Source of the DNA: a virus | Strand: one strand, 5' to 3' | IMG/VR virus record: IMGVR_UViG_3300042197_004918 | Coordinates: 109,818-173,817 of that record | DNA length: 64,000 nt | Part shown: piece after piece, positions 5,594 to 61,666 of the stretch | How positions within the stretch are numbered: the stretch's first letter is position 1 | Layout: each line of letters starts with the position of its first letter | Notes under the pieces: generated by a model | Databases searched by the model: none | The model's input: only the letters and a program-made list of their open reading frames with translations | Told to the model about the DNA's origin: nothing | Position numbers and translations under genes: made by a program

Positions 5594-5594
5594 T

Positions 5595-6447: not shown

Positions 6448-6998
6448 ATTTCGTAAATCTTTCCATCTAACATAGTCTTGACCCCCAACTTAGCACTCAC
6501 AACTCTGACTTTGATGTGGGATTCATAAATCATCAAGTCGCTTCTTGCTCCACTAGCCGCCCACTTCTCTCGTGCAGCCTCTAATGAAAGCCCATGTTCC
6601 CACTCCTCGTGCAAAACTATCTCTGAAATTCCTGATTGGATTATGGCCCGAGTGCAATCGCTACACGGAAGTCCCTGTGTGTATAGAGTTGTTCCTAAAG
6701 TAGATATACCATTTCTGGCACAGTGGTAGATGCTGTTCCTCTCCGCGTGTTCTGCCCAAAAATACTTTTCGGGTCTTTCGTGTCGTTCGGGGAAAGTGTC
6801 TATAACTCCTCGACAAAATCCGTTATATCCCTCACTTATTACCGCATTGTTTCTTACAATTACCGCACCAATCTTTGTCATCTTATCCTTGCTTTTTGAA
6901 GCAATAAGATATACGTGTCTCAAAAACAATTCATCCCAATTTGGGATTTTCCAATCAGAATGGTCCACTATATCCCTCCATAATGTCCTGTCCAGCAT
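6444..6998 (-). CDS. dCMP deaminase family protein
   Basis: Deaminates dCMP to dUMP, the substrate of the thymidylate synthase downstream in the same operon. Zinc ligands are clear: HAE at 84-86 and PCSDC at 111-115; GYNGFCRG at 58-65 is the typical nucleotide-binding segment. 184 residues from ATG 6998 (preceded by GGGAG). A GTG at 6968, preceded by a strong GGAGG at good spacing, is a credible alternative start and would shorten the 44-nt overlap with the gene upstream. The C-terminal extension beyond the core is of unknown use. Confidence 0.92.
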   Translation of the reverse strand: MLDRTLWRDIVDHSDWKIPNWDELFLRHVYLIASKSKDKMTKIGAVIVRNNAVISEGYNGFCRGVIDTFPERHERPEKYFWAEHAERNSIYHCARNGISTLGTTLYTQGLPCSDCTRAIIQSGISEIVLHEEWEHGLSLEAAREKWAASGARSDLMIYESHIKVRVVSAKLGVKTMLDGKIYEI

Positions 6999-7167
6999 GA
7001 AACGTCTCCCACCATTCTGAATATTGTTGAACTTGATTCTCGTGGATAAGGTCATTCAAAGCACATTTTAAAGCCTCTACGTTGGCTACATCTTCGGTTG
7101 TGAATCCATGACTATCCACGAGGTCAATGATTTCTTCGACGAGCTGATATGGTGATTTCTCTGTCAT
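6955..7167 (-). CDS. small acidic hypothetical protein
   Basis: 70 residues, acidic N-terminal half (EKSPYQLVEEIIDLVDSHG). First gene after a leaderless-type promoter; it overlaps the start of the dCMP deaminase gene by up to 44 nt, so translation of the two may be linked. Confidence 0.6.
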   Translation of the reverse strand: MTEKSPYQLVEEIIDLVDSHGFTTEDVANVEALKCALNDLIHENQVQQYSEWWETFHAGQDIMEGYSGPF

Positions 7168-7173
7168 AAAGGT

Positions 7174-7201
7174 ATCTTACATCCGAACAATGCTCGGTCA
7201 A
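7174..7201 (-). promoter_or_regulatory. sigma70-type promoter, leaderless configuration
   Basis: TTGACC (7201-7196), 16-nt spacer, TAAGAT (7179-7174), then 6 nt to ATG 7167. It overlaps the stop end of the metallophosphoesterase gene and probably drives dCMP deaminase and downstream genes. Confidence 0.65.
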
Positions 7202-7860
7202 CTTTTTTCATTAACATGGTGGTCAACTTCTTTGATTTTTTTCTTGGACATTACACTCTTAATGTCATCGAAGGAATATGGTCCGAGATTTCCATCCCAT
7301 CCGATGTCCAGTATCAACCCTTCCTTAGCGTCTGCCCTGGTAGCAGGAAAGCTATAGTGACTGTGTCCACAAAGCATGAATGCACCTTCCTTCATAAAGT
7401 TCCACACAGAAAGAGGGTAGTGCATCATAATCAAAATCTGTCCATCAAGAAGAAGTTCTTGATAGTCTCCAAGAAAAATTACGTTCTTATAACGAAACGG
7501 CGTGACCTTAATATCCTCTCCATACTTCGCGAAAACTTCCCTCCGATAGACAGATTCCACCGGATTGTTATGGTTCCCCCACAACATATAGATGTTCTGG
7601 CAATTAATCCGTGAAAGATACCCCTCAAATTGAGACTCTTTTGTGTTTAAACAAAAATCTCCGATGAAGAACAACTTATCTTCTGGCTTAACCTTCTCGT
7701 TCAGTGTTGAGATGATATAATCTGTGCATTCATCTACGTTTTTGTGACCCCTCTTCTCCCAAACAAACGGTTTGTTATGTCCGAGGTGAAAGTCGCTACT
7801 AAACCAGACCTTAGAATTTTCTTCGGTCTTCATCTTCATCATGTGTGATATGTTTGACAT
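7198..7860 (-). CDS. metallophosphoesterase
   Basis: Calcineurin-like phosphoesterase; all metal-binding blocks are present: SDFHLGH (22-28), GDF, GNHN, MHYPL and CGHSH. Substrate is not evident; phage members of this family include nucleic acid and cyclic-nucleotide hydrolases. 220 residues from ATG 7860; a TTG further up at 7899 is rejected because it is the -35 box of the promoter. A second, different enzyme of this family lies at 29518. Confidence 0.9.
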   Translation of the reverse strand: MSNISHMMKMKTEENSKVWFSSDFHLGHNKPFVWEKRGHKNVDECTDYIISTLNEKVKPEDKLFFIGDFCLNTKESQFEGYLSRINCQNIYMLWGNHNNPVESVYRREVFAKYGEDIKVTPFRYKNVIFLGDYQELLLDGQILIMMHYPLSVWNFMKEGAFMLCGHSHYSFPATRADAKEGLILDIGWDGNLGPYSFDDIKSVMSKKKIKEVDHHVNEKS

Positions 7861-7870
7861 TGTTTCTTCT

Positions 7871-7899
7871 AATGTAACACTCCGTTTGTAAATAGTCAA
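7871..7899 (-). promoter_or_regulatory. sigma70-type promoter
   Basis: TTGACT (7899-7894), 17-nt spacer, TACATT (7876-7871). The metallophosphoesterase ATG lies 10 nt past the -10 box, giving a leader of only a few bases. Confidence 0.65.
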
Positions 7900-7944
7900 C
7901 GATATTAAATCGACAATCTTTCAGTGAATGTGTAATGTGTTGAT

Positions 7945-8382
7945 ATGGATACAGTCCCACCACCAAGTTTTGTAAAAAACCGATACAAACCGGTTACTCA
8001 ACGATTTGATGGGTCGTTTCATAAATTTGGGCCAGAGATGACTAAGCTGTTATCCGCCTATCCGTCGGAAAATCCTATTTGGTATGTGATTGGAGAAGAA
8101 TTCATAACCTCATACAAGTTAGTTAGAAGCGACGCACAACTTCTCGACCCCTGGAATCGTCCGTTTCCTGATGAAATGATTTCTAAGATGGTCACAGTGG
8201 AACTTCCCGAAAAACACGTAAAAATTCCAACCACTGTCAGTGGAACACTGTATATGTGCAATGTTTATGTGCGGGATTTAAATCAATTGGAGATCGACTG
8301 TAACGATTGTATAGGCAGAAACGAGTGTATAGAATGTAATAAAACTCGTCGGAAAATTGTCGTATTTCCAAAAATGAATTGA
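7945..8382 (+). CDS. hypothetical protein with Cys cluster
   Basis: 145 residues, first gene of the plus-strand block and divergent from the metallophosphoesterase (45-nt shared upstream region). The C-terminus holds CNDCIGRNECIECNK, a CxxC-x5-CxxC zinc-finger-like cluster. Rest has no recognisable motif. Confidence 0.65.
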   Translation: MDTVPPPSFVKNRYKPVTQRFDGSFHKFGPEMTKLLSAYPSENPIWYVIGEEFITSYKLVRSDAQLLDPWNRPFPDEMISKMVTVELPEKHVKIPTTVSGTLYMCNVYVRDLNQLEIDCNDCIGRNECIECNKTRRKIVVFPKMN

Positions 8383-24999: not shown

Positions 25000-25224
25000 G
25001 TGTTTCACTTCAACAAGGGTCACCTGGCCAATCCAGAGATTCCTATGTGGGTGTTAAAAACAAAAGGCGAAAGCTACTATGTGAATCACGTCACCGCGAG
25101 TTGTTCTTGGACAACCAAGGAAACTCCCGACAATCCTACAACCAAAGGTTCTTTGAAGTTTAAGAACGTGGATGTGGAAATCAGTGAAGATAGAGAAGCG
25201 ACAATTTTTGCGTCTGTAGTTTAA
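25000..25224 (+). CDS. conserved-looking small phage protein
   Basis: 74 residues, GTG start. Segments NPEIPMWVLKTKGESYYVNHV and TTKGSLKFKNVDVEI look beta-rich and conserved-type. The stop lies inside the next tRNA. Function unknown. Confidence 0.65.
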   Translation: MFHFNKGHLANPEIPMWVLKTKGESYYVNHVTASCSWTTKETPDNPTTKGSLKFKNVDVEISEDREATIFASVV

Positions 25225-25284
25225 TGGTCAGAACTGGCGCCTCTAAAACGCCGTGTGTGGGTTCGACTCCCATTGGACGCACCA
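25210..25284 (+). tRNA. candidate amber suppressor tRNA (CTA)
   Basis: Acceptor GCGTCTG/TGGACGC, D-arm GTTT-AATGGTCAG-AAC, anticodon stem GGCGC/ACGCC (C-A mismatch at the loop) with loop CTCTAAA, T-arm GTGGG-TTCGACT-CCCAT, CCA encoded. With T33 the anticodon reads CTA, which decodes UAG. If the loop is shifted by one it would read TCT (Arg), but that breaks the stem. Confidence 0.65.
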
Positions 25285-30428: not shown

Positions 30429-31400
30429 ATGAAAGAAAAACAAGCAGATGTTACAGCGTGCGGCGTAATAGTCGCCAGATTCCAACTCCACGAACTCCAC
30501 GATGCTCATCGTGATTTAATCCAAAGCGTCATTGATAGACACGAACGGGTTATTATCTTCTTGGGACTTTCGCCCCTAAAAAATACCGTCAACAATCCCC
30601 TTGAATTCAAACAACGCAAGGCGATGATTGAAGAAGAATTTAAGGGTTGCACCAAAAACATCGAAATTCACTACGTTGACGATAATCGTGACGACCACGT
30701 TTGGTCGAAGAATCTCGACAAACAATTGGCCAAGTGGTTGAACCCCGGACAGAAGGCAACTCTTTATGGCAGTCGGGACAGTTTTCTAAAGTGCTACCAC
30801 GGAAAGTATCCGGTCTGTGAACTCGAATCGGATTATTTCGTTTCGGCCACTGACATTCGGAAGAAAATCATCAACAATTATCCGCCAACGAAGGATTTTC
30901 GTGCTGGTCTGATTGCTGCTACCGGGTTGAAATACCCGACAGCATTTCAAACAGTGGACGTGGCCGTGGTGAACGATAAAGGTGAAATTCTCCTCGTCAA
31001 AAAGCCCGGAGAAGCGCAATGGAGATTCATTGGTGGATTCAGCGACCCCCGTAGTTTGAGTTTGGAAGAGGATGCTCGCCGAGAGATTCACGAAGAAACG
31101 GGAGTTGCTACTGGAGACCCGATTTATCTCGGAAGCACTCTCATTGATGACTGGAGATATAGACGGGAAACGGACAAAATTAAGACCGCTTTCTTTGTCA
31201 CAAAATATCTCTATGGGGCACCTCAAGGCGCTGATGATGTTGAGGTTGCTGGGTGGGTTAATCTCGCTGACCTCGTTAAAAACCAGAACATTGTTCCGGA
31301 ACACACGGTTTTGCTCAAAATGTTAATTGATAAATATTTGGGCAACGTTGAACTGTATAAGAAATTCAACGAACGTATGGCCGACGGATTAATGCCTTGA
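30429..31400 (+). CDS. bifunctional NMN adenylyltransferase / Nudix hydrolase
   Basis: 323 residues. N-terminal NMNAT: VIVARFQLHELHDAH (13-27) with the HxxH site, and VSATDIRKK (138-146) as the ISSxxxR motif; makes NAD+ from NMN and ATP. C-terminal Nudix domain: box from Gly203 to Gly225 with REIHEETG, expected to hydrolyse ADP-ribose or similar. The same fusion is known from cyanobacteria and from Vibrio phage KVP40 (NatV). Together with NadV it forms the nicotinamide-to-NAD+ route described as NARP2, used by phages to restore NAD+ emptied by host defences. Confidence 0.95.
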   Translation: MKEKQADVTACGVIVARFQLHELHDAHRDLIQSVIDRHERVIIFLGLSPLKNTVNNPLEFKQRKAMIEEEFKGCTKNIEIHYVDDNRDDHVWSKNLDKQLAKWLNPGQKATLYGSRDSFLKCYHGKYPVCELESDYFVSATDIRKKIINNYPPTKDFRAGLIAATGLKYPTAFQTVDVAVVNDKGEILLVKKPGEAQWRFIGGFSDPRSLSLEEDARREIHEETGVATGDPIYLGSTLIDDWRYRRETDKIKTAFFVTKYLYGAPQGADDVEVAGWVNLADLVKNQNIVPEHTVLLKMLIDKYLGNVELYKKFNERMADGLMP

Positions 31401-31425
31401 CTTTCGGTGATGGCGGTGATAACAT
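31397..31425 (+). promoter_or_regulatory. possible promoter of nadV
   Basis: TTGACT (31397-31402), 17-nt spacer, TAACAT (31420-31425). The -35 box overlaps the stop of the NMNAT-Nudix gene. Confidence 0.5.
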
Positions 31426-31429
31426 AAAT

Positions 31430-31452
31430 GTGACCTGATTTAGATGGGTCAC
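31430..31452 (+). promoter_or_regulatory. leader hairpin upstream of nadV
   Basis: GTGACC - TGATTTAGATG - GGTCAC. Stem differs from the 30369 hairpin but the closing CC, loop TGATTTwGAT and following GGG are kept. Confidence 0.5.
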
Positions 31453-31484
31453 GGAAACTAAAATAGAAAGATAAAGATAACTCT

Positions 31485-32918
31485 ATGAATGCTAACGAAA
31501 ATATTATCCTTTTAACGGATAGCTACAAAGTCGGACACCACAATATGTATCCGACAGGCACACAGAATGTTTACAGCTACTTTGAGAGCCGTAAAGGTGC
31601 CAAATTCAACGAAACCGTCTTCTTCGGGCTCCAAGCATACTTGAAAAAGTATTTTGCTGGAGTCGTCGTGACTCAGACCGACATTGACAAGGCGGACGAG
31701 TTTTGCAAAGAACACTTCCTTGGAATGAATTTCTTTAATCGTGCCATGTGGCAACGTATTGTTGACGTTCACAATGGAAAACTTCCTCTCCGGATTATGG
31801 CTGTCAAAGAAGGAACTCCCGTTCCGGTCGGCAACGTCTTGATGACGGTTGAGGCCACGGACGAGACGATTAACCCTGAGACTGGTAACGCTTATTTCGC
31901 TCCTCTTACAAATGTGTTTGAAACCATCTTGACTCACGTTTGGCACCCAAGCAATGTCGCCACTATCAGTCGGGACATCAAGAAACACTTGAAGGCTGGT
32001 TTCGATAAAACGGTTCCCGACGAATTGGGTTGGTTACTTGACTATATGCTCCACGATTTCGGTTTCCGTGGAGTAAGCTCGGTTGAATCGGCTGGAATGG
32101 GTGGTGCAGGACATTTGGTTAATTTCAAGGGAACAGATACCCTCGTCGCAATCACTTATGCCCGGCGTTATTACAACACAACTGAAATGGTGGCTCACAG
32201 CGTTGCTGCCACGGAACACAGTGTTATGACCGCAGAAGGGCCTGCTGGCGAGTTTAAGGTGGTTGAGAAGTTGATTAAAGACTATCCCGCCGGCATCCTT
32301 TCGGTTGTCAGCGACAGTTACGACATTGAGAACGCCATCAGACAGTATGGAACTACATACAAAGAGGCTATCCTTGGACGAAATGACGGTGCTAAGTTTG
32401 TTATTCGTCCGGACAGCCCTCGGTTTGAGGACGATACGCCGGCAGCACAAATTCTATGGATTGCTCAGGAGCTTGAGAAGTATTTCGGTGCTACGGTGAA
32501 CGGTAAAGGATACAAGATGCTTCACCCGAAAGTTGGTATCATCTACGGAGATGGACTCAGCCGAGATGAAATCATCGAAGCAATCGACACGCTTATTGTG
32601 AATGGATACGCCGCAAGCACTTGTGTCTTCGGTATGGGTGGTGGATTGTTACAGAAACACAATCGGGACACTCAACGAAACGCTTTCAAGTGTTCGGCTC
32701 AGAAGCGTGGAGACAAGTGGGTTGAAATCTTCAAAGACCCAAAGGACAAGACCAAGGCATCGAAACGTGGTCGTCTCGCACTTGTCTTGGAAAACGGCCA
32801 GTATAAGACCGTGTTGGAGAGTGAAGCGAAAGACAATCTCTTGGAAGTCGTTTTTGAGAACGGTGTTTTGACCCGAGATATGACGTGGAACGAAGTTCGT
32901 AACAACGCAAAAGTATGA
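31485..32918 (+). CDS. nadV: nicotinamide phosphoribosyltransferase
   Basis: 477 residues, full length for NAMPT/NadV. LLTDSYKVGHHNMYP at the N-terminus, DFGFRGVSS, GTDTLVAITYARRYY, TEHSVMTAEG, VVSDSYDIENA, VIRPDSP and YGDGLSRDEI are the hallmark blocks for nicotinamide, PRPP and phosphate binding. Makes NMN from nicotinamide and PRPP, the step before the NMNAT encoded just upstream; the PRPP synthetase at 34907 can supply PRPP. Stop overlaps the next start by 4 nt. Confidence 0.97.
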   Translation: MNANENIILLTDSYKVGHHNMYPTGTQNVYSYFESRKGAKFNETVFFGLQAYLKKYFAGVVVTQTDIDKADEFCKEHFLGMNFFNRAMWQRIVDVHNGKLPLRIMAVKEGTPVPVGNVLMTVEATDETINPETGNAYFAPLTNVFETILTHVWHPSNVATISRDIKKHLKAGFDKTVPDELGWLLDYMLHDFGFRGVSSVESAGMGGAGHLVNFKGTDTLVAITYARRYYNTTEMVAHSVAATEHSVMTAEGPAGEFKVVEKLIKDYPAGILSVVSDSYDIENAIRQYGTTYKEAILGRNDGAKFVIRPDSPRFEDDTPAAQILWIAQELEKYFGATVNGKGYKMLHPKVGIIYGDGLSRDEIIEAIDTLIVNGYAASTCVFGMGGGLLQKHNRDTQRNAFKCSAQKRGDKWVEIFKDPKDKTKASKRGRLALVLENGQYKTVLESEAKDNLLEVVFENGVLTRDMTWNEVRNNAKV

Positions 32919-33193
32919 AACCAATTACTGCTGAAGAAGCGAGAAAGTTGTCTATGACTTCCAAAGAGTCTTTGGCTTCAAAGTTTATCATTGACATTTA
33001 CGCTTCAATTGCTTGTAAAGCTGAACTTGGTCATAATCAATTGTCGTATCCGATAAATAATACAAAAATCGACGAAGTTATCCTAAGTATAGTCATTTCA
33101 AAGTTAAAAGAACTTGGATATAAAGCAGAACACAGTTCTGGAAGTGATTGCCGTGACGGCGATTCTTGGAACAACCTTAACATCTCTTGGTGA
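32915..33193 (+). CDS. hypothetical protein
   Basis: 92 residues, coupled to nadV by ATGA. Alpha/beta with ILSIVISKLKELGYKAEHSSG and a C-terminal DSWNNLNISW typical of many small phage proteins that end in an IxW strand. Unknown. Confidence 0.65.
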   Translation: MKPITAEEARKLSMTSKESLASKFIIDIYASIACKAELGHNQLSYPINNTKIDEVILSIVISKLKELGYKAEHSSGSDCRDGDSWNNLNISW

Positions 33194-33196
33194 ATT

Positions 33197-34153
33197 ATGA
33201 CTAAACATTGGAATCAAACTAAAATAATCAATTCTTCCGACGAGAACGTGAGGAAGTATGTATTTACAAACGTCAATGCTGTGGCCGAGGCGGTTCTATA
33301 CAAATACCCCACGTATGTAGAGAGAACGGTAATCTGCTGTTCCACTCAATCTGGATGTCCCGTTGGATGTAGGTTCTGTGGTGCAGGAGATAATTTTGTC
33401 AGGTCGTTAACGACAGACGAGATTGTGAGTCAGCCGGAACAACTGTTGAGGGATACCGGTGTGGACGTATCTTCGATTGACCGTCTTCAAATCATGTTTA
33501 TGAGCATGGGAGAACCTATGTTAAATTGGAAGAATTTGAAGCCCGCATTGTATGAGTTGTATAAGAAGTTTCCAAAAGCACGACTTCTTATCAGCACATC
33601 CGCTCCGAGGGTTTTTGAAAACTTCGAGGATCTCTGTAAAGTTTCAATTGACATCCCTACGATTGGTTTACAGTTTTCGGTTCACGAAAGCACGGACGCG
33701 GCTCGTAAAAAGCTCATCCCAAGCGCCACTCAGACATTGGATGAAATTGCCATGAGCGGAGAAGATTGGTCTATTGCCACTCAACGCCGTCCGTTTTTCA
33801 ATTATTGTGTTCACCCCAACAATAATACTCAGGAAGACGTGAATCGTTTGACGAAACTTTTCCTTCCTAGTATCTGGGAAGCAACTCTCTCTGTAATTTG
33901 CGAACGAGACGAACACGTAGCGGCGGCTAATGAACGTCAGAGGAAACTTGCTCAGGACTTCTCCGAGAAGATGTTAAAATCGGGTTACAATGTCAGAGTA
34001 TTCAATCCTGCCGGGCAGGATGATATTGGAGGAGGTTGTGGACAATTATGGTTTGTCCAAGACTGGATGAAAAAACATCCGGAATTGACCAAACATACGG
34101 CTGGTTACGGTCTTGATAAGGTCCACACACCGAAATCAGTTGACTTTGTATAA
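33197..34153 (+). CDS. RlmN/Cfr-family radical SAM protein, short form
   Basis: 318 residues. [4Fe-4S] motif C54-x3-C58-x2-C61 in SGCPVGCRFCG, MSMGEPMLN, FSVHESTDAARKKLIP and the C-terminal CGQL with Cys281 (the methyl-carrying cysteine) are all as in RlmN, which methylates A2503 of 23S rRNA and A37 of some tRNAs. It lacks the ~70-residue N-terminal domain of E. coli RlmN. Whether it acts on rRNA, tRNA or both is unknown; the nearby tRNA repertoire makes tRNA a candidate. Lies inside the NAD operon. Confidence 0.9.
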   Translation: MTKHWNQTKIINSSDENVRKYVFTNVNAVAEAVLYKYPTYVERTVICCSTQSGCPVGCRFCGAGDNFVRSLTTDEIVSQPEQLLRDTGVDVSSIDRLQIMFMSMGEPMLNWKNLKPALYELYKKFPKARLLISTSAPRVFENFEDLCKVSIDIPTIGLQFSVHESTDAARKKLIPSATQTLDEIAMSGEDWSIATQRRPFFNYCVHPNNNTQEDVNRLTKLFLPSIWEATLSVICERDEHVAAANERQRKLAQDFSEKMLKSGYNVRVFNPAGQDDIGGGCGQLWFVQDWMKKHPELTKHTAGYGLDKVHTPKSVDFV

Positions 34154-34167
34154 AACCGATATACACT
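34140..34167 (+). promoter_or_regulatory. sigma70-type promoter, leaderless configuration
   Basis: TTGACT (34140-34145), 16-nt spacer, TACACT (34162-34167), 6 nt to ATG 34174. Confidence 0.7.
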
Positions 34168-34173
34168 GATAGT

Positions 34174-34434
34174 ATGTTACACTTTCACGGCCAATTCAAA
34201 GAATCCAGATTCGCGTGGGAACTCTGTATGTTCCATAAACTACGAGAATTTTCAGATGGATTGACTCTGGTGGATTTCGACGTTAATTACGATAAATACG
34301 TCGGCGACCACACGCCGAAATTTGAGGTTCTTCTCGTGTTGTTCAACTATGTGATTGTCGATTTCTCAATCTATAACATTTATCATGCAGACCATGAGGC
34401 CTATCAGAGCAATCATCGACCGGGCGGTTTTTAA
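34174..34434 (+). CDS. hypothetical protein
   Basis: 86 residues; aromatic-rich (HGQFKESRFAWELCMFHKL), with a hydrophobic stretch LLVLFNYVIVDFSIYNIY. Not clearly a membrane protein. Unknown. Confidence 0.55.
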   Translation: MLHFHGQFKESRFAWELCMFHKLREFSDGLTLVDFDVNYDKYVGDHTPKFEVLLVLFNYVIVDFSIYNIYHADHEAYQSNHRPGGF

Positions 34435-34567
34435 TTCCGTCTCAGACGCAGTTAATGAATATGAGGCCGACGAAGACGATATATGGTTCACCTTTATGTC
34501 CATTGATGACATTTATGACGACGCTTTGTTGATTCCACACTTTTACGTGAAGGACTTAAATTCCTAA
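34394..34567 (+). CDS. small acidic protein, duplicate pair member A
   Basis: 57 residues (MRPIRAIIDRAVFNSVSDA...). Start ATG 34394 aligns with the start of the next gene; ATG 34385 is an alternative. Shares R-x-IID-x-VF-x5-AVNEYE-x5-WFTF with the gene at 34580. Confidence 0.6.
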   Translation: MRPIRAIIDRAVFNSVSDAVNEYEADEDDIWFTFMSIDDIYDDALLIPHFYVKDLNS

Positions 34568-34579
34568 GTAACACTTATT

Positions 34580-34759
34580 ATGGCTGTCAGAACAATAATT
34601 GATGAAGTAGTTTTTTCTCCCGTCGCAAATGCAGTCAATGAATATGAGGGATGTGAGCATGAGGTGTGGTTCACATTTTTGTTAAACGACGAAGCGGATG
34701 AGAATTTTACAGATTTGCTGAATCTGATTCAACACATTTATGCAAATTCCAACGGCTGA
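34580..34759 (+). CDS. small acidic protein, duplicate pair member B
   Basis: 59 residues (MAVRTIIDEVVFSPVANAVN...). Clear paralogue of the preceding gene, in tandem. Function unknown. Confidence 0.65.
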   Translation: MAVRTIIDEVVFSPVANAVNEYEGCEHEVWFTFLLNDEADENFTDLLNLIQHIYANSNG

Positions 34760-34910
34760 ACGAGCGGTCGAAAGAATGGTTTTAGACAACTATTCTTTAG
34801 ACGATTACGATTTTATCGCAGATGAAAGAGATGACTTGAAAAGAATCGTCTCCGATGGTAGTCTTGAAGCAGTGATATTGACAGCGGTGAGTGACTTTTT
34901 ATACACATGA
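34740..34910 (+). CDS. small acidic protein
   Basis: 56 residues (MQIPTAERAVERMVLDNYSL...). Overlaps the preceding gene by 20 nt and the prs start by 4 nt (ATGA). Acidic helix. Unknown. Confidence 0.6.
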   Translation: MQIPTAERAVERMVLDNYSLDDYDFIADERDDLKRIVSDGSLEAVILTAVSDFLYT

Positions 34911-35875
34911 ACACATTAAAAATATTCAGTGGAACCTCTAATCTACCCTTGGCTAAATCTATTGCTGAGAACTTGTCTTTGAAGTTAGGAGACATTTATC
35001 ATCACAATTTTCCAAGTGGAGAGAGTTATTGTCAATTCAAAGAAAGCATTCGTGGAAACGATGTATTTCTGATTCAGGGCATAACCAATCCGGCGAACGA
35101 GAGTCTGATGCAATTGCTTGTCATGGCAGATGCGGCTAGACGTTCAAGTGCTTCACGTATCACCGCAGTTGTTCCTTATTTTGGGTATGCTAGACAAGAC
35201 CGTAAGGACAAAAATCGTGTTCCTATCAGTGCGAAGTTAGTGTTGGATTTAATCGAGGCTGCCGGTATTAACCGAGTGTTGACTATGGACCTCCACAGTC
35301 CTCAAATCTGTGGCTTCACAAATCTGCCGTTTGACCATCTGACGTTTGAACCGGTCCTTTCCAATCACATCAAATTGTGTTTTCCTAACAGAACAAATCT
35401 CGTCATTATGGCTCCCGACGTTGGGGCGGTGAAACGGGCTGAAAAATACGCAGAAACTCTTGGGTGTGAATTCGGATTCATAAGTAAAAAACGTCTCGGT
35501 GATGAATCGGTTGAATTTCAGAGTATTGTCGGCAACGTGTCTGGAAAATCTGTGGTTATCATTGATGATATGACGGAAAGCGCCGGCACTCTGATTCAAG
35601 CCGCTCAAGCGTGTAGGGCAAACGGAGCAGTTGAGATAATTTGCGCCGTGTCACATGGCTGTTTCACGGATGTTGGTCGGCAAAGACTGTGTGAGGCTAT
35701 GCCGCCGGCTGGGCCAGGATTAATTGACGGGTTTATCCACAGCGACTCCGCTGACGTTGTGTGGAAGGAAAAATGCAAGCCATTGGAAATTCAATCTTTA
35801 AGCGTTGACAAGTTATTCGCTTCGGCTATCAACAACATCCATAACAATGAAAGCGTAAGTGAGTTATTCGTATGA
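34907..35875 (+). CDS. prs: ribose-phosphate pyrophosphokinase (PRPP synthetase)
   Basis: 322 residues. FSGTSNLPLAKSIAENL, FPSGESYCQF, QGITNPANESLMQLLVMADAARR, VPYFGYARQDRKD, MDLHSPQICGFT, and the PRPP loop VVIIDDMTESAGTL are all present. Makes PRPP from ribose 5-phosphate and ATP, the co-substrate of NadV, so phage NAD+ synthesis is not limited by the host PRPP pool. Slightly shorter flexible loop than E. coli Prs but catalytic residues kept. Confidence 0.96.
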   Translation: MNTLKIFSGTSNLPLAKSIAENLSLKLGDIYHHNFPSGESYCQFKESIRGNDVFLIQGITNPANESLMQLLVMADAARRSSASRITAVVPYFGYARQDRKDKNRVPISAKLVLDLIEAAGINRVLTMDLHSPQICGFTNLPFDHLTFEPVLSNHIKLCFPNRTNLVIMAPDVGAVKRAEKYAETLGCEFGFISKKRLGDESVEFQSIVGNVSGKSVVIIDDMTESAGTLIQAAQACRANGAVEIICAVSHGCFTDVGRQRLCEAMPPAGPGLIDGFIHSDSADVVWKEKCKPLEIQSLSVDKLFASAINNIHNNESVSELFV

Positions 35876-40534: not shown

Positions 40535-41661
40535 TGAAGAGTTTCAAACAAATTATTTTTGAGAATATGCCTGTGGCGAAGATAAAACATCTTTACGGAG
40601 CAGTTCCGCTGGATAAATTGATTTCAAAGAAAGCGAAGGAGTTGGTTAATGAGTCAATCCATCCTGCTGATAGATGGGTTGGAGTGGTGGACCATAACGG
40701 TTCGGTTATACTCCCGCCCAATCAAGATGGAGATAGGCAACACTATCATTACGGACTCGAAGGACATTTATATAGATTTTCATACTGGCCACATAAAAAG
40801 GAAGTGAGTTGGTGGAATTTTCCATCCGATGAGGAAGAACTTGCTGTGAAGGTAGAGGATTATCTGATAAGAAAAGGATACCCGGTTGACAGACACGTTG
40901 ACTATACTGGAAGAAAAATACGAGACACGTTGAATGAATCAATGTTTCCCAAAGACTTCGATAGACACTCTCTCGGAAGTTGTATGGCCGCTGCTGCCAT
41001 GGCTACTGACTATCTGTTATCAAAAGGCCGTTCCGATTTCAAAGTAGTTGAGGGTTGGGTTTCTTTGGATCCTAATCAAGAGGAAGAGGATTTCTCCCCT
41101 CACACATGGATACAATTCAATAACGGCAAAATCTTTGACCCAACGAAGAAACAATGGGCCGCGTGGGGATTTGACCCAAATGAAGTCCGGTTTGAAAGTA
41201 TCAAAAAGACCTACACACCAGAAGAATACCAATCGGTTTGCCAACGTCAGCCCGATGATGTCTCCGAGTTTAAGAAAATGGCTGAAGCGACTATGATTAA
41301 CGATGAGATTCCTGAGAAGGTGTATCATGCCACCTATCGTGCTCTGCTCGACGAAATACTTGATGGAGGTATAGTTCCTGGAGGTAAAGACATCCAGAAT
41401 TTCGATTGGTCAGGGAAGTATGTATATCTCGCTGAGACTCCTGAGAATGCAATATCGTTCGTTGAAAATGCCGAGAATGAGAGTATTCCGGAAGAATGGT
41501 TGGATGATATTGTCGTATTGGAAGTGGATATGTCTAAACTAGATTTGACGAATATGGCTCCGGATGAAAACTGGAATCCATCCATTGAAGACGGCGAAGA
41601 GGGATACCGTTCTTTTCAATATAATGGCATTGTGCCACCGGAGGCTATAAGGGTGTTATGA
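40534..41661 (+). CDS. putative head-packaged protein B: papain-like plus ART-like
   Basis: 375 residues. Leader MKSFKQIIFENM (IFE site). Residues 49-120 are a shorter copy of the shared module (YRFSYWPHKKEVSWWN, VEDYLIRKGYPV). Residues ~146-205: GSCMAAAAMATDYLL with C150, SPHTWIQF with H190 and DPT with D202, the order of a transglutaminase/papain-like protease. C-terminal ART-like domain: YHATYRALLDEILDGGIVPGG (264-284), VYLAETPENA, VVLEVDMSKL, GIVPPEAI. Would combine cleavage or deamidation with ADP-ribosyl transfer or removal; activities are inferred. Confidence 0.65.
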   Translation: MKSFKQIIFENMPVAKIKHLYGAVPLDKLISKKAKELVNESIHPADRWVGVVDHNGSVILPPNQDGDRQHYHYGLEGHLYRFSYWPHKKEVSWWNFPSDEEELAVKVEDYLIRKGYPVDRHVDYTGRKIRDTLNESMFPKDFDRHSLGSCMAAAAMATDYLLSKGRSDFKVVEGWVSLDPNQEEEDFSPHTWIQFNNGKIFDPTKKQWAAWGFDPNEVRFESIKKTYTPEEYQSVCQRQPDDVSEFKKMAEATMINDEIPEKVYHATYRALLDEILDGGIVPGGKDIQNFDWSGKYVYLAETPENAISFVENAENESIPEEWLDDIVVLEVDMSKLDLTNMAPDENWNPSIEDGEEGYRSFQYNGIVPPEAIRVL

Positions 41662-43598
41662 TAAAACTCAAAGACATTGTATCTGAATTAGACTATCCGT
41701 TAGCAGGAAAGGAAGACCTTCAATCCTACGGTGGTATGGCCGGATGGAAAGGTAAGATTGTCTATATGTCTCCTGACAAATTTCTTAGACTTGCTGCTCC
41801 TCTCCCCGATTGGGCAATCAACAAGGAAGGTCTAAAGAAGATAGAAGATAGAATGAAAGGTCAACTTCCTCTGGACTTCTGTGTATTGGAAGTCAATATG
41901 AAGACGAGAACGGTGACTGGTCACGAGGGCCGTCATCGTTGTATGGCAGCAAAGAAATTGGGAATTGAAAAGGTTCCTGTGTTGATTTACACCGGAAGCA
42001 GTTTTGACCGCGTTCCGCAGTGGGACCAATCTACTCACGATGATGTAGATAAGGCTGAGTTTAAACCACAATTAAAGGAGTCTACTGATGGAAACCTTAT
42101 CGTTGGTTCAATATCTAAAGATGGGGAGAATAGAATCATATCTTCCGATAAAGTCAAAATGCATCTGGATTTATACAAGTTACATCCGGAATTTGATAGA
42201 AAGAATTGTGAAAGTTGGAGGTATAATAAAGAATTGAAATCGCTGTTTTTCTGGCACAAATTCGTTGAAACAAAGTATTCAGAACCCGTGAAGGAATACT
42301 TGAAAGGTAAGGGGTTTGAAGTGAATAAAGTTACGTCAATAAACGCTTTACCTGATGCTGGTATGAGACCGGGATACGATAAACAAAAGGCCTTATATCA
42401 ATCTCATGGAGCTGTCAGCAAGTTTTATCGGGACCCAGATGGAGAACCAATCGCTGAGTCTGTAGATTCCACATTTAAGATGTATCACGGAGGTTCTCGG
42501 TGGTCATATCTCCCAGACGAAATACAGCCTGGTAAAAAGAATCACTATGAAGCTGGTGTAGGCATCTATTTTACAAATTCATACAACACGGCTAGAAGGT
42601 ATGCTAAGGGCGGTAAGGTGGTTCACTTGGTTGAGATTGACAAACAATTTAAAGATATTGACGATGTAACTGTTCCGGTGGGTAAACTCACAGAGTTTGT
42701 TAAAAATGTCCCGCAACTGACATCGAAGAATGATATTATACGTGACATCAACGCATATGCAACTCGTGTTGGGAAAACCGAGATTCCGTTATCCATATTA
42801 AACAACCTCGTGGTCAATTATCAGGCGGCAAGAGGAAAATCGGGAGTTTACATTGCCAAGTTCTTTTCAGAAAACGGTGCTGATGGACACGTTCAAGAAC
42901 AGAGTGGTGGTGAAATTTGGTTGGTGGTGTTTAATCCAAAGATTCTAAAGTCAGTGAAGGTTGTGAATCCAAAAGAAATCAATTCCGACTCACAGTTTAT
43001 GCTACCCGGCAGTTTAACGGAAGAACGTGATTTAGATTATGACGTCGCTGAGGATTTCATGCGGAGAAGAGATGAAGAATTGATGTATCTATGTCGTGCT
43101 CTCAAAAACAGCGGCGGTAAGGGTAGAGTGACGTGGAAAACTATTCCGGCGACCCTACTGAAACGAGTCTGGCTTCAGTTTGGAAAATACAATAGGATAA
43201 ATTCCAACGATTTAGATAAGATAGCTGACCAAATACTCACCAATATAGCCAGATTGAGAGCTTCCACTGAAATGATGGGCCATGCTCAAATCGGTAAAGA
43301 AGATATTGAGGATGAAACCGGATATGAATTTACAGAGGAAGAGTGGGACGACTGGATGACTTCTTATTTTACAGATTTGAACGGAAGTTGGTTGTTGAGT
43401 GATTATGGATTGCCCAAACTTGAGTCAATCTACCCATTGATTTTTAATGCGAAGACGGATGAGGAAAAATTGTATGCGTGTGATAAGGCGTTAAACGTGA
43501 TTCACCAACGAAACGACTTGGCTTCGATGTTTGTCGAGGGTGGAAGCAAAACCTTGTTGGATGTGGCCCGCCAAGGTGGTTACACAAGTGATACTTGA
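41658..43598 (+). CDS. putative head-packaged protein C: ParB-like plus ART-like
   Basis: 646 residues. Leader MIKLKDIVSELDY (VSE site). Residues ~35-112: ParB/Srx-like domain with VTGHEGRHRCMAAKKLGIEKVPVL. Residues ~147-268: the module shared with protein A (SWRYNKELKSLFFW, YQSHG, FYRDPDGEPIAES). Residues ~272-430: ART-like domain with MYHGGSRWSYLP, GVGIYFTNSYNTARRYA and a C-terminal GEIWLVVFNP. The last 200 residues are helical and unknown. Resembles 'polyvalent' proteins that phages and plasmids deliver into cells. Overlaps protein B by 4 nt. Confidence 0.7.
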   Translation: MIKLKDIVSELDYPLAGKEDLQSYGGMAGWKGKIVYMSPDKFLRLAAPLPDWAINKEGLKKIEDRMKGQLPLDFCVLEVNMKTRTVTGHEGRHRCMAAKKLGIEKVPVLIYTGSSFDRVPQWDQSTHDDVDKAEFKPQLKESTDGNLIVGSISKDGENRIISSDKVKMHLDLYKLHPEFDRKNCESWRYNKELKSLFFWHKFVETKYSEPVKEYLKGKGFEVNKVTSINALPDAGMRPGYDKQKALYQSHGAVSKFYRDPDGEPIAESVDSTFKMYHGGSRWSYLPDEIQPGKKNHYEAGVGIYFTNSYNTARRYAKGGKVVHLVEIDKQFKDIDDVTVPVGKLTEFVKNVPQLTSKNDIIRDINAYATRVGKTEIPLSILNNLVVNYQAARGKSGVYIAKFFSENGADGHVQEQSGGEIWLVVFNPKILKSVKVVNPKEINSDSQFMLPGSLTEERDLDYDVAEDFMRRRDEELMYLCRALKNSGGKGRVTWKTIPATLLKRVWLQFGKYNRINSNDLDKIADQILTNIARLRASTEMMGHAQIGKEDIEDETGYEFTEEEWDDWMTSYFTDLNGSWLLSDYGLPKLESIYPLIFNAKTDEEKLYACDKALNVIHQRNDLASMFVEGGSKTLLDVARQGGYTSDT

Positions 43599-43632: not shown

Positions 43633-45063
43633 ATGTTAATGAAAGATTTATTGTTGGAAGGTATAAAGGAAACCGCTGCGTTGGATTATCTGACGCAGTT
43701 GGTTAAATCTGGCCCATTTAAGGGCAGGGTGTTCCTCGCGGGCGGAGCTGTCCGAGACATGGAACTCGGCAAAGACCCAAAGGATTTAGATGTAGTTGTC
43801 ACCGGAGGAATTGAAGCTGGGATGGAGTTTGCACGATGGGCGACTCGTCAGATGGGGAACTATAAAACGGATTCAAATCCCGTCGTCTTTCCACAATACG
43901 GAACCGCGAAGTTCACTTTACAGGGAATTACCCACAACGGAATTGATTTGAGTGATATAGACATCGAAGCTGTTGCTACCAGAAAAGAAAAATACTCTGA
44001 TGGCAGTCGTAAACCGGAGGTGACTTCTGGCGACTTGGCCGATGACGTAAATCGTAGAGATTTCACGGTCAACAGTCTATTGAAAGACTTGACCACGGGT
44101 GAAATTCTGGATTTGACCGGCAAGGGTAAAGACGACATCCGTAAGGGTATAGTTCAGACTCCCCTTAATCCAGACATAATCTTCACGGAAGACCCGCTTA
44201 GGATTTTGAGGGCCGCTAGATTTGCTATCAAATACGATTGGGATTTGCCATTGTTCATGGTGAGGGCCATGAAACGCAATTCCGCGAAGCTGAAAAACAT
44301 CAGTTTTGAAAGAATCAGAGACGAACTTGATAAGATGTTGCTGACCGGTTCTCCACACCGAGCCATCAAACTTTTGAAAATTACAGGTGTCTTGGAATAC
44401 GTTGTTCCTGAATTTAAGGCAGCCTACAAGATGACCCAAAACATACACCATAAGCACGACGTGTTTGCACATTCTATGGATGTATTAAGTAAAACCAAGC
44501 CTGTTCTTGTTCAACGGTTGATGGGACTTTTCCACGACATCGGTAAAACGGTGACTCGTAGCGTAACTCCTACGGGTGTTCATTTCTATGGCCACGAATA
44601 CGAGGGTGCCAAGATGGTTGCTGAGATAATGAAGAGGATGAAATACCCAAATGAGCTTATTAAGCAAGTTGTCCTTGGAGTCAACAGCCACATGAGGCTC
44701 AAATCTGGTGGACCGGATTCCTTTAAGTTAAGCGATAAGGCTTTGAGAAAGTTCAAGGTTGAGATGGGTGACGAAATAGAGAACATTTTGGATGTTATCC
44801 ACGCCGACAATATCAGTCACAGTGAGGCATCTAGTATGCCGGCTCAAATAGATAATATCAGAGAAAGGTTGTCTAACCTGTCAATCACAGCTGAGAAGCC
44901 AAAACTTCCGATAACCGGTGAGGATTTAAAACTAGCAGGAATTAAGCCAGGACCAATTTACTCTGAAATAATGAGTGCGGTCTTGGAGAAGTGGTATGAG
45001 AATCCGTCTATATCCAAAGAGGAGGCTTTGAACATCGCTAGAGAACTTTCCAAGAAAGTTTAA
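43633..45063 (+). CDS. CCA-adding enzyme / poly(A) polymerase family, with HD domain
   Basis: 476 residues. LAGGAVRDMELGKDPKDLDVVVTG (35-58) with D51-x-D53 metal pair, RRDFTVNSL, EDPLRILRAARFAIKY and SFERIRDELDKML are the head and neck motifs of class II CCA enzymes. HHKHDVFAHSMDVL ... LFHDIGK is a C-terminal HD phosphohydrolase domain as in E. coli-type enzymes. Completes or repairs tRNA 3' CCA ends; about nine tRNAs in the window lack a full encoded CCA. The start MLMKDLLLEGIKE carries an LLE site like the packaged-protein leaders, so the enzyme might even be injected. Confidence 0.92.
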   Translation: MLMKDLLLEGIKETAALDYLTQLVKSGPFKGRVFLAGGAVRDMELGKDPKDLDVVVTGGIEAGMEFARWATRQMGNYKTDSNPVVFPQYGTAKFTLQGITHNGIDLSDIDIEAVATRKEKYSDGSRKPEVTSGDLADDVNRRDFTVNSLLKDLTTGEILDLTGKGKDDIRKGIVQTPLNPDIIFTEDPLRILRAARFAIKYDWDLPLFMVRAMKRNSAKLKNISFERIRDELDKMLLTGSPHRAIKLLKITGVLEYVVPEFKAAYKMTQNIHHKHDVFAHSMDVLSKTKPVLVQRLMGLFHDIGKTVTRSVTPTGVHFYGHEYEGAKMVAEIMKRMKYPNELIKQVVLGVNSHMRLKSGGPDSFKLSDKALRKFKVEMGDEIENILDVIHADNISHSEASSMPAQIDNIRERLSNLSITAEKPKLPITGEDLKLAGIKPGPIYSEIMSAVLEKWYENPSISKEEALNIARELSKKV

Positions 45064-45763: not shown

Positions 45764-46111
45764 ATGAGATTAGCAATAATAGGTTCACGCAGTTTTACAA
45801 ATATTGATTTGGCCGAACAGGTTTTTGTTTCATTTTTCCCAAAAGGAAAAGTTTCTTTAATTGTTTCCGGTGGCGCCAAAGGTGCGGATTTGATTGGAAG
45901 AGAAATTTCCAAAAGACATTCAATCGAACTTCTTGAGTTTATACCAGATTGGGAAAATTTAGGAAAGTCCGCCGGATTTATAAGAAATCGGCAAATAGTA
46001 GAATCATCCGACATGGTGCTTGCGTTCCACGATGGAATCAGCCGAGGAACACAAAACTCTCTGGACGTTTCCAGACAATTAAAGAAACCATCATTAATTT
46101 GGTTTTTCTAG
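45764..46111 (+). CDS. SLOG-domain protein (YspA-type)
   Basis: 115 residues: RLAIIGSRSF (2-11), VSGGAKGADLIGREISKRH (33-51), AGFIRNRQIVESSDMVLAFHDG and SRGTQNSLDVSRQ make a complete Rossmann-like SLOG fold related to DprA/YspA. SLOG proteins bind nucleotides or NAD-derived ligands and act as sensors or nucleosidases. TTGACA at 45728 lies upstream with a weak -10. Confidence 0.85.
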   Translation: MRLAIIGSRSFTNIDLAEQVFVSFFPKGKVSLIVSGGAKGADLIGREISKRHSIELLEFIPDWENLGKSAGFIRNRQIVESSDMVLAFHDGISRGTQNSLDVSRQLKKPSLIWFF

Positions 46112-46146: not shown

Positions 46147-46722
46147 GTGAGTAAGAAATTTTATTCGTGGATGAAGAATGGGTCGAACGTGAGGAAGGTT
46201 AAATCTCTTTACACGTTGAGGCCATACCACAATTGGAAACATATTGAGAAGTGCCTCTCGTTTTTCGATAAACGATTGCAACCTCATGCGACCGATGAAT
46301 TGTTGTTTGCTGTAGTTTATCACGACGCGATATACAATCCAGGATCGAATACCAATGAGGAGGATAGCGTGTCACTGGCAAAATTGGACCTGTCTGGTCT
46401 TGAGTTAAATCTGAACAAAATCTCAGACCTCATTATTTCAACTAAGCACCGCTATCATACATCTTTCGCTGATGACGATGAGACACAGTGTATGCTTGAT
46501 GTAGATTTGTCCATACTGGGTTCTCCGAGAGACGAGTATATCGAATACGCTCAGTCAATACGTGAGGAGTATTTGTTTGTAAATTATCCCACGTTCTCAA
46601 AGGCGAGAATAGATTTCTTACAAAAGATGCTTTCGAGAAAAGTGATTTTCAACAAACTCACGGAATTGGAATCCGTAGCGAGAACAAACTTATATGATGA
46701 AATCGTGCATCTATCCCGGTAG
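46147..46722 (+). CDS. HD-domain phosphohydrolase
   Basis: 191 residues, GTG start set by the promoter. YHNWKHIEKCL, VVYHDAIYNPGSNTNEEDSV, IISTKHRYHT and MLDVDLSILG are the metal-binding HD blocks of the predicted HD family seen in phages and bacteria. Substrate probably a nucleotide. Overlaps the CoA synthase gene by 26 nt. Confidence 0.88.
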   Translation: MSKKFYSWMKNGSNVRKVKSLYTLRPYHNWKHIEKCLSFFDKRLQPHATDELLFAVVYHDAIYNPGSNTNEEDSVSLAKLDLSGLELNLNKISDLIISTKHRYHTSFADDDETQCMLDVDLSILGSPRDEYIEYAQSIREEYLFVNYPTFSKARIDFLQKMLSRKVIFNKLTELESVARTNLYDEIVHLSR

Positions 46723-47821
46723 TTTTGACCCACTCACTCTAGGACACCTTGACATAATCTCTCGTGCAGCCAATATGTTCGAGACTGTTTATGTTGCAGT
46801 GGGCATCAATAAATCAAAAACGGGAGCATTTACCGTAGATGAAAGAACGTCTCTCATAACCGAGGCCACCAAACGAATTCCGAACGTCAAAGTGGTTCAA
46901 TTCAGTGGATTATTGGCAGATTATTGTTATGAATTGGGTTGCAAAGTTGTGATAAAGGGAGTCCGAAATTTTCAAGACTTTGACTATGAACGGTTGTTGA
47001 ATGATGTCGGGCATACACAACAACGGGGAATCGAAACGATTACACTTTTCGCTAAGACAGAACTATCCCATGTCAGTTCTTCCGCTGTGAAGGAGTTGGT
47101 TAAATACAATGGGTTGATAGATGGATACGTCTCACTTAATGTAAAAGAAGCACTTGAGGCCCGTTGTATGAGTCAGTATGTGCTGGGTGTCACAGGAGAA
47201 ATAGGGATGGGGAAATCCTTCTTTTCTAAAAAAATGGTGGAGATTGGAAATACGTCGTTTCATTCCATGACCAAAGAAATCGACCTGGATAAGATAGGCC
47301 ACGATATTCTTCACGTTAGAACCGAACCGGTTTATCTTGAACTCCGAGAAAACATCATTAAAGAGTTTTCCCTCGGCGGCGACGTTATTGACCGAAAACT
47401 CTTAGGTTCAATCGTGTTCAACGATTCGTCTGCGCTTGATAAATTGAATGCTATGATGAGGATTCCAATGTTGACCCGTATAAGGAAAGAAATGGGCACA
47501 TGGAAAGGATTGTTAATTTTAAATGGTGCTTTATTGGTCGAATCCAACCTGTTGTCCCTCTGTAATAACAATGTGGTCTTGGTATCTTCCAGTGAAGAAA
47601 ATCAATTGAAGGTATTGAAGAACAGAGGGATGTCGGACGAACAGATTTCACGGAGAATTCGGAGTCAGCTCACCAATTCTAAGAAACTGGAGAAGATTAA
47701 GGAGTCGATAAACATTTCCGGCCACGGTGAGGTTGTGGTGATAACGGATATTTACGACAATGACTCGGTTTCCAATGTAATTAATCACATTTCCACGAAC
47801 GCGCTCAGGAAAATCCCTTGA
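46697..47821 (+). CDS. fused CoA synthase: CoaD-CoaE (PPAT plus dephospho-CoA kinase)
   Basis: 374 residues from ATG 46697. N-terminal ~150: CIYPGSFDPLTLGHLDII (4-21), GLLADYCYEL, IKGVRNFQDFDYE and HVSSSAVKELV are PPAT (CoaD) motifs, joining ATP to 4'-phosphopantetheine. C-terminal ~210: LGVTGEIGMGKS with P-loop 167-174, DLDKIGHDIL, and LLILNGALLVESNLLS ... VLVSSSEENQLKVLKNRGMSDEQISRRI are CoaE motifs, phosphorylating dephospho-CoA. The two last steps of CoA synthesis are fused as in animal COASY, here in a bare two-domain form. The reading frame is continuous. Phage use is unknown; it may sustain CoA or alter CoA/NAD pools. Confidence 0.9.
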   Translation: MKSCIYPGSFDPLTLGHLDIISRAANMFETVYVAVGINKSKTGAFTVDERTSLITEATKRIPNVKVVQFSGLLADYCYELGCKVVIKGVRNFQDFDYERLLNDVGHTQQRGIETITLFAKTELSHVSSSAVKELVKYNGLIDGYVSLNVKEALEARCMSQYVLGVTGEIGMGKSFFSKKMVEIGNTSFHSMTKEIDLDKIGHDILHVRTEPVYLELRENIIKEFSLGGDVIDRKLLGSIVFNDSSALDKLNAMMRIPMLTRIRKEMGTWKGLLILNGALLVESNLLSLCNNNVVLVSSSEENQLKVLKNRGMSDEQISRRIRSQLTNSKKLEKIKESINISGHGEVVVITDIYDNDSVSNVINHISTNALRKIP

Positions 47822-54957: not shown

Positions 54958-55393
54958 CGATACTCCCCGGACTGATGAAGAATGTTTCTCTGGACCTTAT
55001 GGTTCGGAGGTTTTCGTCCCGGCAAATTTCGCTAGACAGCTTGAACGAGAACTAATTATCGCTCTCTCAAAACTCAAAGAGTGTGAACGACAAATAGTTC
55101 AGTTGGAGACTGAGAATATGAGAATCAACGAAGATAAACTTAGGTTGGATTGGCTTCAATACGGTCACGGAGTAGTCGCATTGTCGAAATCCGCTGGAAA
55201 AATAGTATTCTCTGCTAATTTTGAAGAACAAGACTGGGACGAACATGAAGATGTTCGGAAAGCAATAGACGTTGTTAAAAACACGAGTCCTAAATGCCCC
55301 AAGTGTGGAAGTCACACCCAACTCTGGGTGAATCAAGACACTAAGAAGTTGACTTGTCATAGGTGGGGATGTAATAATGTAGAACTTGAATGA
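54935..55393 (+). CDS. coiled-coil zinc-ribbon protein
   Basis: 152 residues from ATG 54935. A central coiled coil (LERELIIALSKLKECERQIVQ) and a C-terminal zinc ribbon CPKCGSHTQLWV ... CHRWGC. This layout is common in phage proteins of unknown role. Confidence 0.65.
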   Translation: MKKVNSGNDTPRTDEECFSGPYGSEVFVPANFARQLERELIIALSKLKECERQIVQLETENMRINEDKLRLDWLQYGHGVVALSKSAGKIVFSANFEEQDWDEHEDVRKAIDVVKNTSPKCPKCGSHTQLWVNQDTKKLTCHRWGCNNVELE

Positions 55394-55932
55394 GTGACCT
55401 TATGTTTAACGAGGTTCCCATCGTTGGGAATGAATACTCCAAAGGAGACTGGCAGAAAATTGCAGTTCACGATACCAATGTCATCAAAGGTTTCTTTGGC
55501 GACTATAGATTTCTTTCCAACTTCTACGATTCGCCGGTCTATTACGAGGGGTTGTTATATCGTTCATCGGAGTGTGCATATCAAGCAGCAAAACTTCTTC
55601 CACATTATCGTTCAGCTTTACAGTCGGTGTCAGCAGCAACTTCTAAGAAGATTTGGAAAAGTTTCGGTGAGGATTCTTTATACGACAATTGTGCTGAAGA
55701 GTGGGATGAACGAAAATATGATGTAATGTCTTCCATCGTGTTTGAAAAATTTTTGAGGAATAAAGTTCTTCGTCATAAACTTAGTTCGACAGGAGATAGA
55801 CATTTAGAAGAAACAAATTGGTGGAAGGATGTTTGCTGGGGAGTGGATATTAACCTCGGCGGTAAAAACTGGTTGGGAATCATACTGATGAATACCAGAT
55901 ATTTCTGGGAAAATAGACCGAAGGAATTGTAA
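55390..55932 (+). CDS. NADAR (YbiA-like) ADP-ribose N-glycosidase
   Basis: 180 residues. FFGDYRFLSNFYDSPVYYEG (35-54), SSECAYQAAK, KIWKSFG, WDERKYDVM, KFLRNKVLRHKLLSTGD-type block and WWKDVCWGVD ... NWLGIILMNTR are the NADAR signature. NADAR proteins cleave N-glycosidic bonds, and members remove ADP-ribose from guanine bases, which would undo DNA ADP-ribosylation by DarT-type defence toxins; others act on riboflavin intermediates. Fits the ADP-ribose theme of the genome. ATGA overlap upstream. Confidence 0.9.
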   Translation: MSDLMFNEVPIVGNEYSKGDWQKIAVHDTNVIKGFFGDYRFLSNFYDSPVYYEGLLYRSSECAYQAAKLLPHYRSALQSVSAATSKKIWKSFGEDSLYDNCAEEWDERKYDVMSSIVFEKFLRNKVLRHKLSSTGDRHLEETNWWKDVCWGVDINLGGKNWLGIILMNTRYFWENRPKEL

Positions 55933-60826: not shown

Positions 60827-61666
60827 ATGGACAAATTCTCAAAAGACCCGCTGGGCGAAAGAATGAAAGGACAGTATGAAGTCCGTTCAAGACAGCTTCT
60901 TCCTCGACGGACATATACCATCATTAGATTAGATGGTAAGGCTTTCCACACTTATACCCGTGGTTTGAACAAACCATTTGATAGGGATTTAATTGATGAC
61001 ATGGACGCAGCCGTGGTAAAGATTTTACCGGAAATCCAAGGTGCTCAGTTCGCATACGTTCAGAGTGATGAAATCAGTATTCTTTTGACCGACTTTGCTA
61101 AGGAGAACACCGACGCTTGGTTCGATGGAAATGTGCAGAAGATGGTGAGTGTGTCAGCGTCTCTGATGACGGCTTATTTTAACAGAGAAAGATATTTGAG
61201 ATGTGGAAACGGTCACAGTGCAGCTCAACCGACTGCTGACTTGGATACCATCGAAGATATGCCGTTGGCCACATTCGATTCTCGGGTGTTCACAATCCCA
61301 GATAGGATTGAGGTTATGAATTACTTCATCTGGAGAAACAATGATGCTGCCCGTAATTCTATTTCAATGGTCGCACAGAGTCTTTACAGTCACAAAGAAC
61401 TCCACGGTAAATCTTCTTCTGACAAACAGGAGATGATTTTCAGAAAAGGAATCAATTGGAGTGAATATGATAAGTCTCTCAAAAACGGACGACTGATTGT
61501 CCGAGAGGAATATCGGATAGATAATCCGTGTTGTGAGATAAATTTATCAGACGGAAAACCATCCGAACCGATGATGAGAACGAAGTGGTCAGTTAAATCC
61601 GCAGAAAAATTCACCCAATCAAAAGATTCGTTGTTAAGCATGATACCTACTTATGAGAATTCCTAA
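60827..61666 (+). CDS. Thg1-like 3'-5' tRNA polymerase
   Basis: 279 residues. IIRLDGKAFHTYTRGL (32-47) with the first metal Asp36, YVQSDEISILL (78-88) with the second acidic pair D81-E82, and WFDGNVQKMVSVSAS are core Thg1 motifs. Eukaryotic Thg1 adds G-1 to tRNA-His; bacterial and phage Thg1-like proteins repair truncated tRNA 5' ends by templated 3'-5' addition. With the CCA enzyme and RNA ligase this gives the phage enzymes for both tRNA ends and internal breaks. Confidence 0.92.
   Translation: MDKFSKDPLGERMKGQYEVRSRQLLPRRTYTIIRLDGKAFHTYTRGLNKPFDRDLIDDMDAAVVKILPEIQGAQFAYVQSDEISILLTDFAKENTDAWFDGNVQKMVSVSASLMTAYFNRERYLRCGNGHSAAQPTADLDTIEDMPLATFDSRVFTIPDRIEVMNYFIWRNNDAARNSISMVAQSLYSHKELHGKSSSDKQEMIFRKGINWSEYDKSLKNGRLIVREEYRIDNPCCEINLSDGKPSEPMMRTKWSVKSAEKFTQSKDSLLSMIPTYENS

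Follow-up and report, generated by a model that had tools for sequence, protein, structure and literature searches.

Background

The fusion of CoaD, a pantetheine-phosphate adenylyltransferase (PPAT), to CoaE, a dephospho-CoA kinase, is familiar from animals. The eukaryotic enzyme, COASY, carries an N-terminal region of about 200 residues ahead of its PPAT domain (PMC2765170). In the same work the aspartate of the DXD motif is given as the general base of dephospho-CoA kinase, and Arg140 of the mycobacterial enzyme is among the residues holding the phosphates of dephospho-CoA (PMC2765170). In snow viromes coaD and coaE have been reported as abundant viral genes, as separate genes (PMC11097641), and for NAD+ a phage reconstitution pathway, NARP1, has been described (PMC12774641). 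When the literature was searched for a CoaD–CoaE fusion from bacteria or phages, no report turned up, and a bacterial-type fusion in phages is apparently undescribed in the literature.

Here we analyse such a gene, coaDE, in a window of 64,000 nt comprising bases 109,818–173,817 of a 173,817-base IMG/VR record (IMGVR_UViG_3300042197_004918). All coordinates below are those of the window unless another record is named.

Results

The coaDE gene (46697..47821, + strand) gives a stop-free translation of 374 aa within the open frame 46694..47821. An alternative first ATG is found at 46694, but we favour 46697 as the start since the phage relatives begin with MKSC. The CoaD (PPAT) domain covers residues 4-156 (46706..47164, +) and scored 163.7 bits (3e-48) with the NCBIfam equivalog TIGR01510, for which the NCBI curated cut-off is 103.3 bits. 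The CoaE domain follows at residues 161-340 (47177..47716, +) and scored 72.4 bits (4.3e-20) with the equivalog TIGR00152, also above its cut-off (65.55 bits). Pfam detected CTP_transf_like at residues 5-133 (1.7e-19) and CoaE (PF01121) at residues 161-335 (2.2e-19), both above the gathering score. In a sequence search against solved structures the CoaD half matched bacterial PPATs with up to 134.7 bits, with 43-44% identity to the chains 3f3m and 4nah, and the CoaE half matched the kinase domains of Thermotoga, Aquifex and mouse COASY. Hence coaDE is a bacterial-type CoaD followed by a divergent CoaE in one uninterrupted frame.

A structure model of coaDE was built from five fusions (mean pLDDT 74.6, pTM 0.58). 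Residues 1-127 of the model match PPATs, the best being 5o08 (Z 18.2, 2.3 Å over 123 residues), and residues 158-370 match dephospho-CoA kinases, with Z 17.4 for 2grj and Z 16.7 for the mouse COASY kinase domain 2f6r. The C-terminal part of CoaD and the linker (126–158) have a pLDDT under 50, so the model is read for the folds of the two halves and not for the mutual arrangement of the domains. When BFVD was searched with the model there was no good full-length two-domain match, and a stand-alone phage dephospho-CoA kinase was matched with a TMt of 0.71. With both domains above curated cut-offs and both folds modelled, the proposal in an earlier note on this DNA, that a single ORF holds both PPAT and dephospho-CoA kinase, was borne out.

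Further we searched for relatives of the fusion. The earlier note knew of no phage with it, which holds for INPHARED, where not one of 50,697 records matches 80% of its length at a single locus, but not for IMG/VR, where several other fusions were detected. Full-length fusions were found in L001 (IMGVR 3300046092_000154; 61% identity to coaDE, with 52% for CoaE against 72% for CoaD), in L006/L007 (IMGVR 3300002138_000052 and 3300002143_000074; 53%) and in L053/L054 (IMGVR 3300031884_000002 and 3300050821_023966; about 36%). The fusions of the latter two are 37% and 38% identical, respectively, to the L001 protein, and the 353,772-base contig 3300031884_000002, a phage, has both terminase and tail sheath. 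The Pseudomonas silesiensis plasmid pPL1 (1.17 Mb) also carries a full-length fusion (34% over 95%), and a 181-kb IMG/VR contig (L112) has one that is 83% identical to that of pPL1. As neither terminase nor tail sheath was found in this 181-kb contig, it may be a plasmid. The same full-length architecture in independent contigs rules out chance or chimeric assembly as the source of the fusion.

CoaD-like matches to coaDE were detected in 64 of the INPHARED records, some of which are apparently host DNA filed as phage. One is Microcystis phage MaAM05 (MW495066.1), where coaD lies beside rplA, rplK, nusG and secE and the DNA is probably that of the host. In Myxococcus phage Mx1, positions 4501-8131 hold CoaD, a second nucleotidylyltransferase and NAMPT in one cluster. 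The nearest case in INPHARED is the 735-kb phage LR756501, with coaD and coaE as separate genes overlapping by 4 bases.

To cover bacteria, six-frame searches with the coaDE protein (P0001) were run on 200 genomes from the phylum of a Campylobacter and on 192 other genomes, and a six-row fusion profile was run against 386 diverse genomes, a set that overlaps the 192. The fusion was found in none of these about 580 sampled genomes, and the best matches in both kinds of search were of CoaD length only. We inspected 17 genomes, mostly picked for long open frames, and in all 17 the CoaD frame stops after CoaD; bacterial CoaE was mostly found in frames of about 200 aa. The two-domain relatives that the earlier note had suggested looking for among viral and bacterial proteins are found in phage contigs and in a Pseudomonas plasmid. 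We reject the idea that coaDE represents a commonplace bacterial fusion, as the top matches in the bacteria sampled were all CoaD-sized, and the searches support that coaDE is not a recent pick-up of one. One bacterial sequence (L031) has an apparent fusion of another kind, Nudix–CoaD without CoaE, in a single 340-residue open frame.

Trees were made for 48 CoaD domains and 39 CoaE domains, with midpoint rooting and limited bacterial sampling. Six fusions (that of the window, L001, L006, L053, L054 and L055) form one clade in each tree, with support of 98/93 for CoaD and 100/99 for CoaE. The same three lineages appear in both, namely the plasmid, L053/L054 and the clade of the window fusion, and the branching order inside the last differs between the trees. 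A single origin, with one old and maintained fusion, seems likely; the limited bacterial sampling and the midpoint rooting make this likely rather than proved. The separate genes of LR756501 are not supported as the unfused ancestor, as the CoaE of this phage does not come out as sister of the fusions; the branch of its CoaD could not be placed owing to its length. For most fusion pairs dN is well below dS, though dS is mostly saturated and the comparison is indicative only. The CoaE domain evolves faster than CoaD, and dN/dS reaches 0.52 for CoaE of L053/L054. In all, coaDE is a member of an old family with few known representatives, which come from large phages and plasmid-like DNA.

We then compared the catalytic residues. 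The nucleotidyl-transferase motif TxGH is present as T14-L-G-H17 (46736..46747, +), with His17 aligned to His18 of E. coli CoaD, and G16 and H17 show no variation among the six fusions. An SSS motif at residues 127-129 (47075..47083, +) aligns with the SSS stretch of the E. coli enzyme. By alignment the equivalents of E. coli CoaD H18, K42, R91, E99, S128 and S129 are kept in all six fusions. The equivalent of Arg88 is Lys in five of the six fusions, coaDE among them, and Lys is also found at this position in some bacterial CoaDs. One might imagine that coaDE makes dephospho-CoA, CoA or a related conjugate for some other use, for example as an RNA 5' cap, or that it acts on an unusual substrate. 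CoaD does make a nucleotide conjugate and nucleotide-linked genes lie nearby, but with active-site residues that are largely canonical we regard this as very improbable.

In the CoaE domain the P-loop GVTGEIGMGKS spans residues 164-174 (47186..47218, +), and its G164, T166, G167, G170, G172, K173 and S174 do not vary in the six fusions. The DxD motif D196-L-D198 (47282..47290, +) follows; D198, the presumed general base, aligns with Asp33 of E. coli CoaE and is kept in six of six. At the position of E. coli Arg140, the LID arginine, the gapped alignment places Val in coaDE, Asn in L001 and Arg in L006, L053, L054 and L055, and so the LID arginine of coaDE seems to be missing. It should be noted that we take E. 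coli D33 and R140 to be the equivalents from the present alignment. Computation shows the presence of both domains and of most catalytic residues, and points to common descent and maintenance of the fusion.

These findings bear on whether the kinase half is still an enzyme of CoA synthesis. It could be that, of the two halves, CoaD alone still works as a CoA enzyme, and that the CoaE half has drifted into a structural or regulatory role or into a kinase of altered substrate. The faster evolution of CoaE, the apparent loss of the Arg140 equivalent in coaDE and L001 and a poorly conserved C-terminal part would fit this, as would the many phages that have CoaD alone. On the other hand the P-loop and D198 are unvaried in the six fusions, TIGR00152 scores above its cut-off and the kinase fold is kept, and we therefore consider such a drift rather unlikely.

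The remainder of the IMG/VR record contains a tail sheath, a baseplate hub, a UvsX-like recombinase and a DnaB-like helicase, along with a clamp loader, a DNA polymerase and a ribonucleotide reductase. Given the sheath, baseplate and replication genes and the 24 tRNA genes in the window, the record is a large myophage. A terminase (phrog_2 match) was looked for in the record and not found, and the record may be incomplete. One of the tRNA genes (25210-25284) has a CTA anticodon and may be an amber suppressor, with ARAGORN labelling it tRNA-Pyl, and an ORF at 60827-61666 resembles tRNA-His guanylyltransferase (Thg1) by eye.

Directly upstream of coaDE is a gene for an HD-superfamily phosphohydrolase (46147..46722, +; phrog_19425, 5e-23). 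Its last 26 nt lie within the beginning of coaDE, as compared to an overlap of 32 nt in L001 and L006. This upstream gene stops with TAG. Further upstream are a SLOG-family (YAcAr) protein (45764..46111, +; PF10686, 2e-9) and a CCA-adding enzyme (tRNA nucleotidyltransferase; 43633..45063, +), the latter syntenic in L001 and L006. The order CCA-adding enzyme, HD phosphohydrolase, coaDE is thus shared by three records that are one lineage. The protein encoded at 41658-43598 resembles an ADP-ribosyltransferase (ART-PolyVal) only weakly, with a score that stays under the curated cut-off.

The window also has an NAD+ salvage set of NMNAT-Nudix, NAMPT and PRPP synthetase genes (30429-35875) and a NADAR gene (55390-55932). 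Among the seven searched records with a fusion, NAMPT (PF04095) was found only in the coaDE record, the 354-kb phage and pPL1, the others being short fragments; with three of seven, NAD+ synthesis is no constant companion of coaDE. The earlier note had proposed a programme of cofactor control from coaDE together with NAD+ synthesis, but NAMPT is common in phages (1,910 of the 50,697 INPHARED records) and tells us little about CoaDE. All seven records have NADAR, as compared to a match in 461 of the INPHARED records, and in L054 it lies directly upstream of the fusion (3474-4004 of that record) with a 4-base overlap.

Discussion

The reading we favour, and hold to be probable, is that coaDE is a bifunctional CoA synthase that takes 4'-phosphopantetheine to CoA and refills the CoA pool independently of the host enzymes. 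The CoaD domain would adenylylate 4'-phosphopantetheine with ATP to dephospho-CoA, and the P-loop kinase domain of CoaE would use a second ATP to phosphorylate dephospho-CoA at its 3'-OH, such that the penultimate and last steps to CoA would take place on one chain. During a long and demanding infection the phage could in this way draw on 4'-phosphopantetheine of the host, delivered by the upstream pathway or by turnover of CoA or ACP, to replenish CoA, with a supply that would not depend on the host's own CoaD and CoaE. Both enzyme activities, and a benefit to the phage, are inferred here.

The encoded steps are also exactly those that lead from 4'-phosphopantetheine back to CoA. By analogy with phage NAD+ reconstitution (PMC12774641), one may thus speculate that coaDE rebuilds CoA after a host defence has split it to 4'-phosphopantetheine, and the presence in this phage of NAMPT, NMNAT-Nudix, PRPP synthetase and NADAR, the last in all seven fusion records searched, could be seen in that light. 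We find this doubtful. A literature search for a CoA-depleting anti-phage defence found none, the NADAR and NAD salvage enzymes have targets different from CoA, and jumbo phages have many genes of the NADAR and NAD-salvage type. Further, as four of the seven NADAR records are close kin, they amount to about four independent lineages. It would be similarly unlikely that coaDE stands at the centre of a CoA reconstitution pathway together with the NAD+/ADP-ribose genes and perhaps the HD phosphohydrolase. If CoA reconstitution were true, it would predict an anti-phage defence of the CoA-depleting kind that is undescribed.

That the fusion has been maintained suggests that mobile elements are under selection to supply CoA, an aspect of phage metabolism that has had little study. 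It raises the testable question of whether phages need to defend or refill the CoA pool of the host.

Comparison with known systems

Like eukaryotic COASY, coaDE has PPAT followed by dephospho-CoA kinase on one chain, and the kinase domains share their fold. In contrast, the PPAT domain of coaDE is of bacterial type; NF001985 (PRK00777), which we take to be the archaeal/eukaryotic-type PPAT, gave 15 bits (cut-off 104; 0.019) against the 163.7 bits of TIGR01510. Nor does coaDE have the N-terminal region of COASY, as CoaD starts at residue 4. The likeness to animal COASY pointed out in the earlier note stands for the domain order, kinship is not supported, and the two are probably separate fusion events.

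Each half of coaDE is by curated score a member of the bacterial families, CoaD (TIGR01510) and CoaE (TIGR00152), but in the sampled genomes bacterial CoaD is never fused to CoaE. The Caulobacter and Brevundimonas phages, the Lak phages, Mx1 and LR756501 encode the same pathway steps in separate genes, unlike coaDE. Since these other phages have CoaD alone, or overlapping coaD and coaE as in LR756501, phages appear to acquire the CoaD and CoaE steps repeatedly. NARP1 is similar in being a phage-encoded rebuilding of a nucleotide cofactor, and the window holds NAMPT and NMNAT-Nudix as well, but the cofactor is another one. Separate viral coaD and coaE (PMC11097641) and the domain order of COASY were thus already known. 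What is apparently new is the bacterial-type CoaD–CoaE fusion in phages. It seems to have arisen separately, and large phages as well as a Pseudomonas megaplasmid have retained it as one unit.
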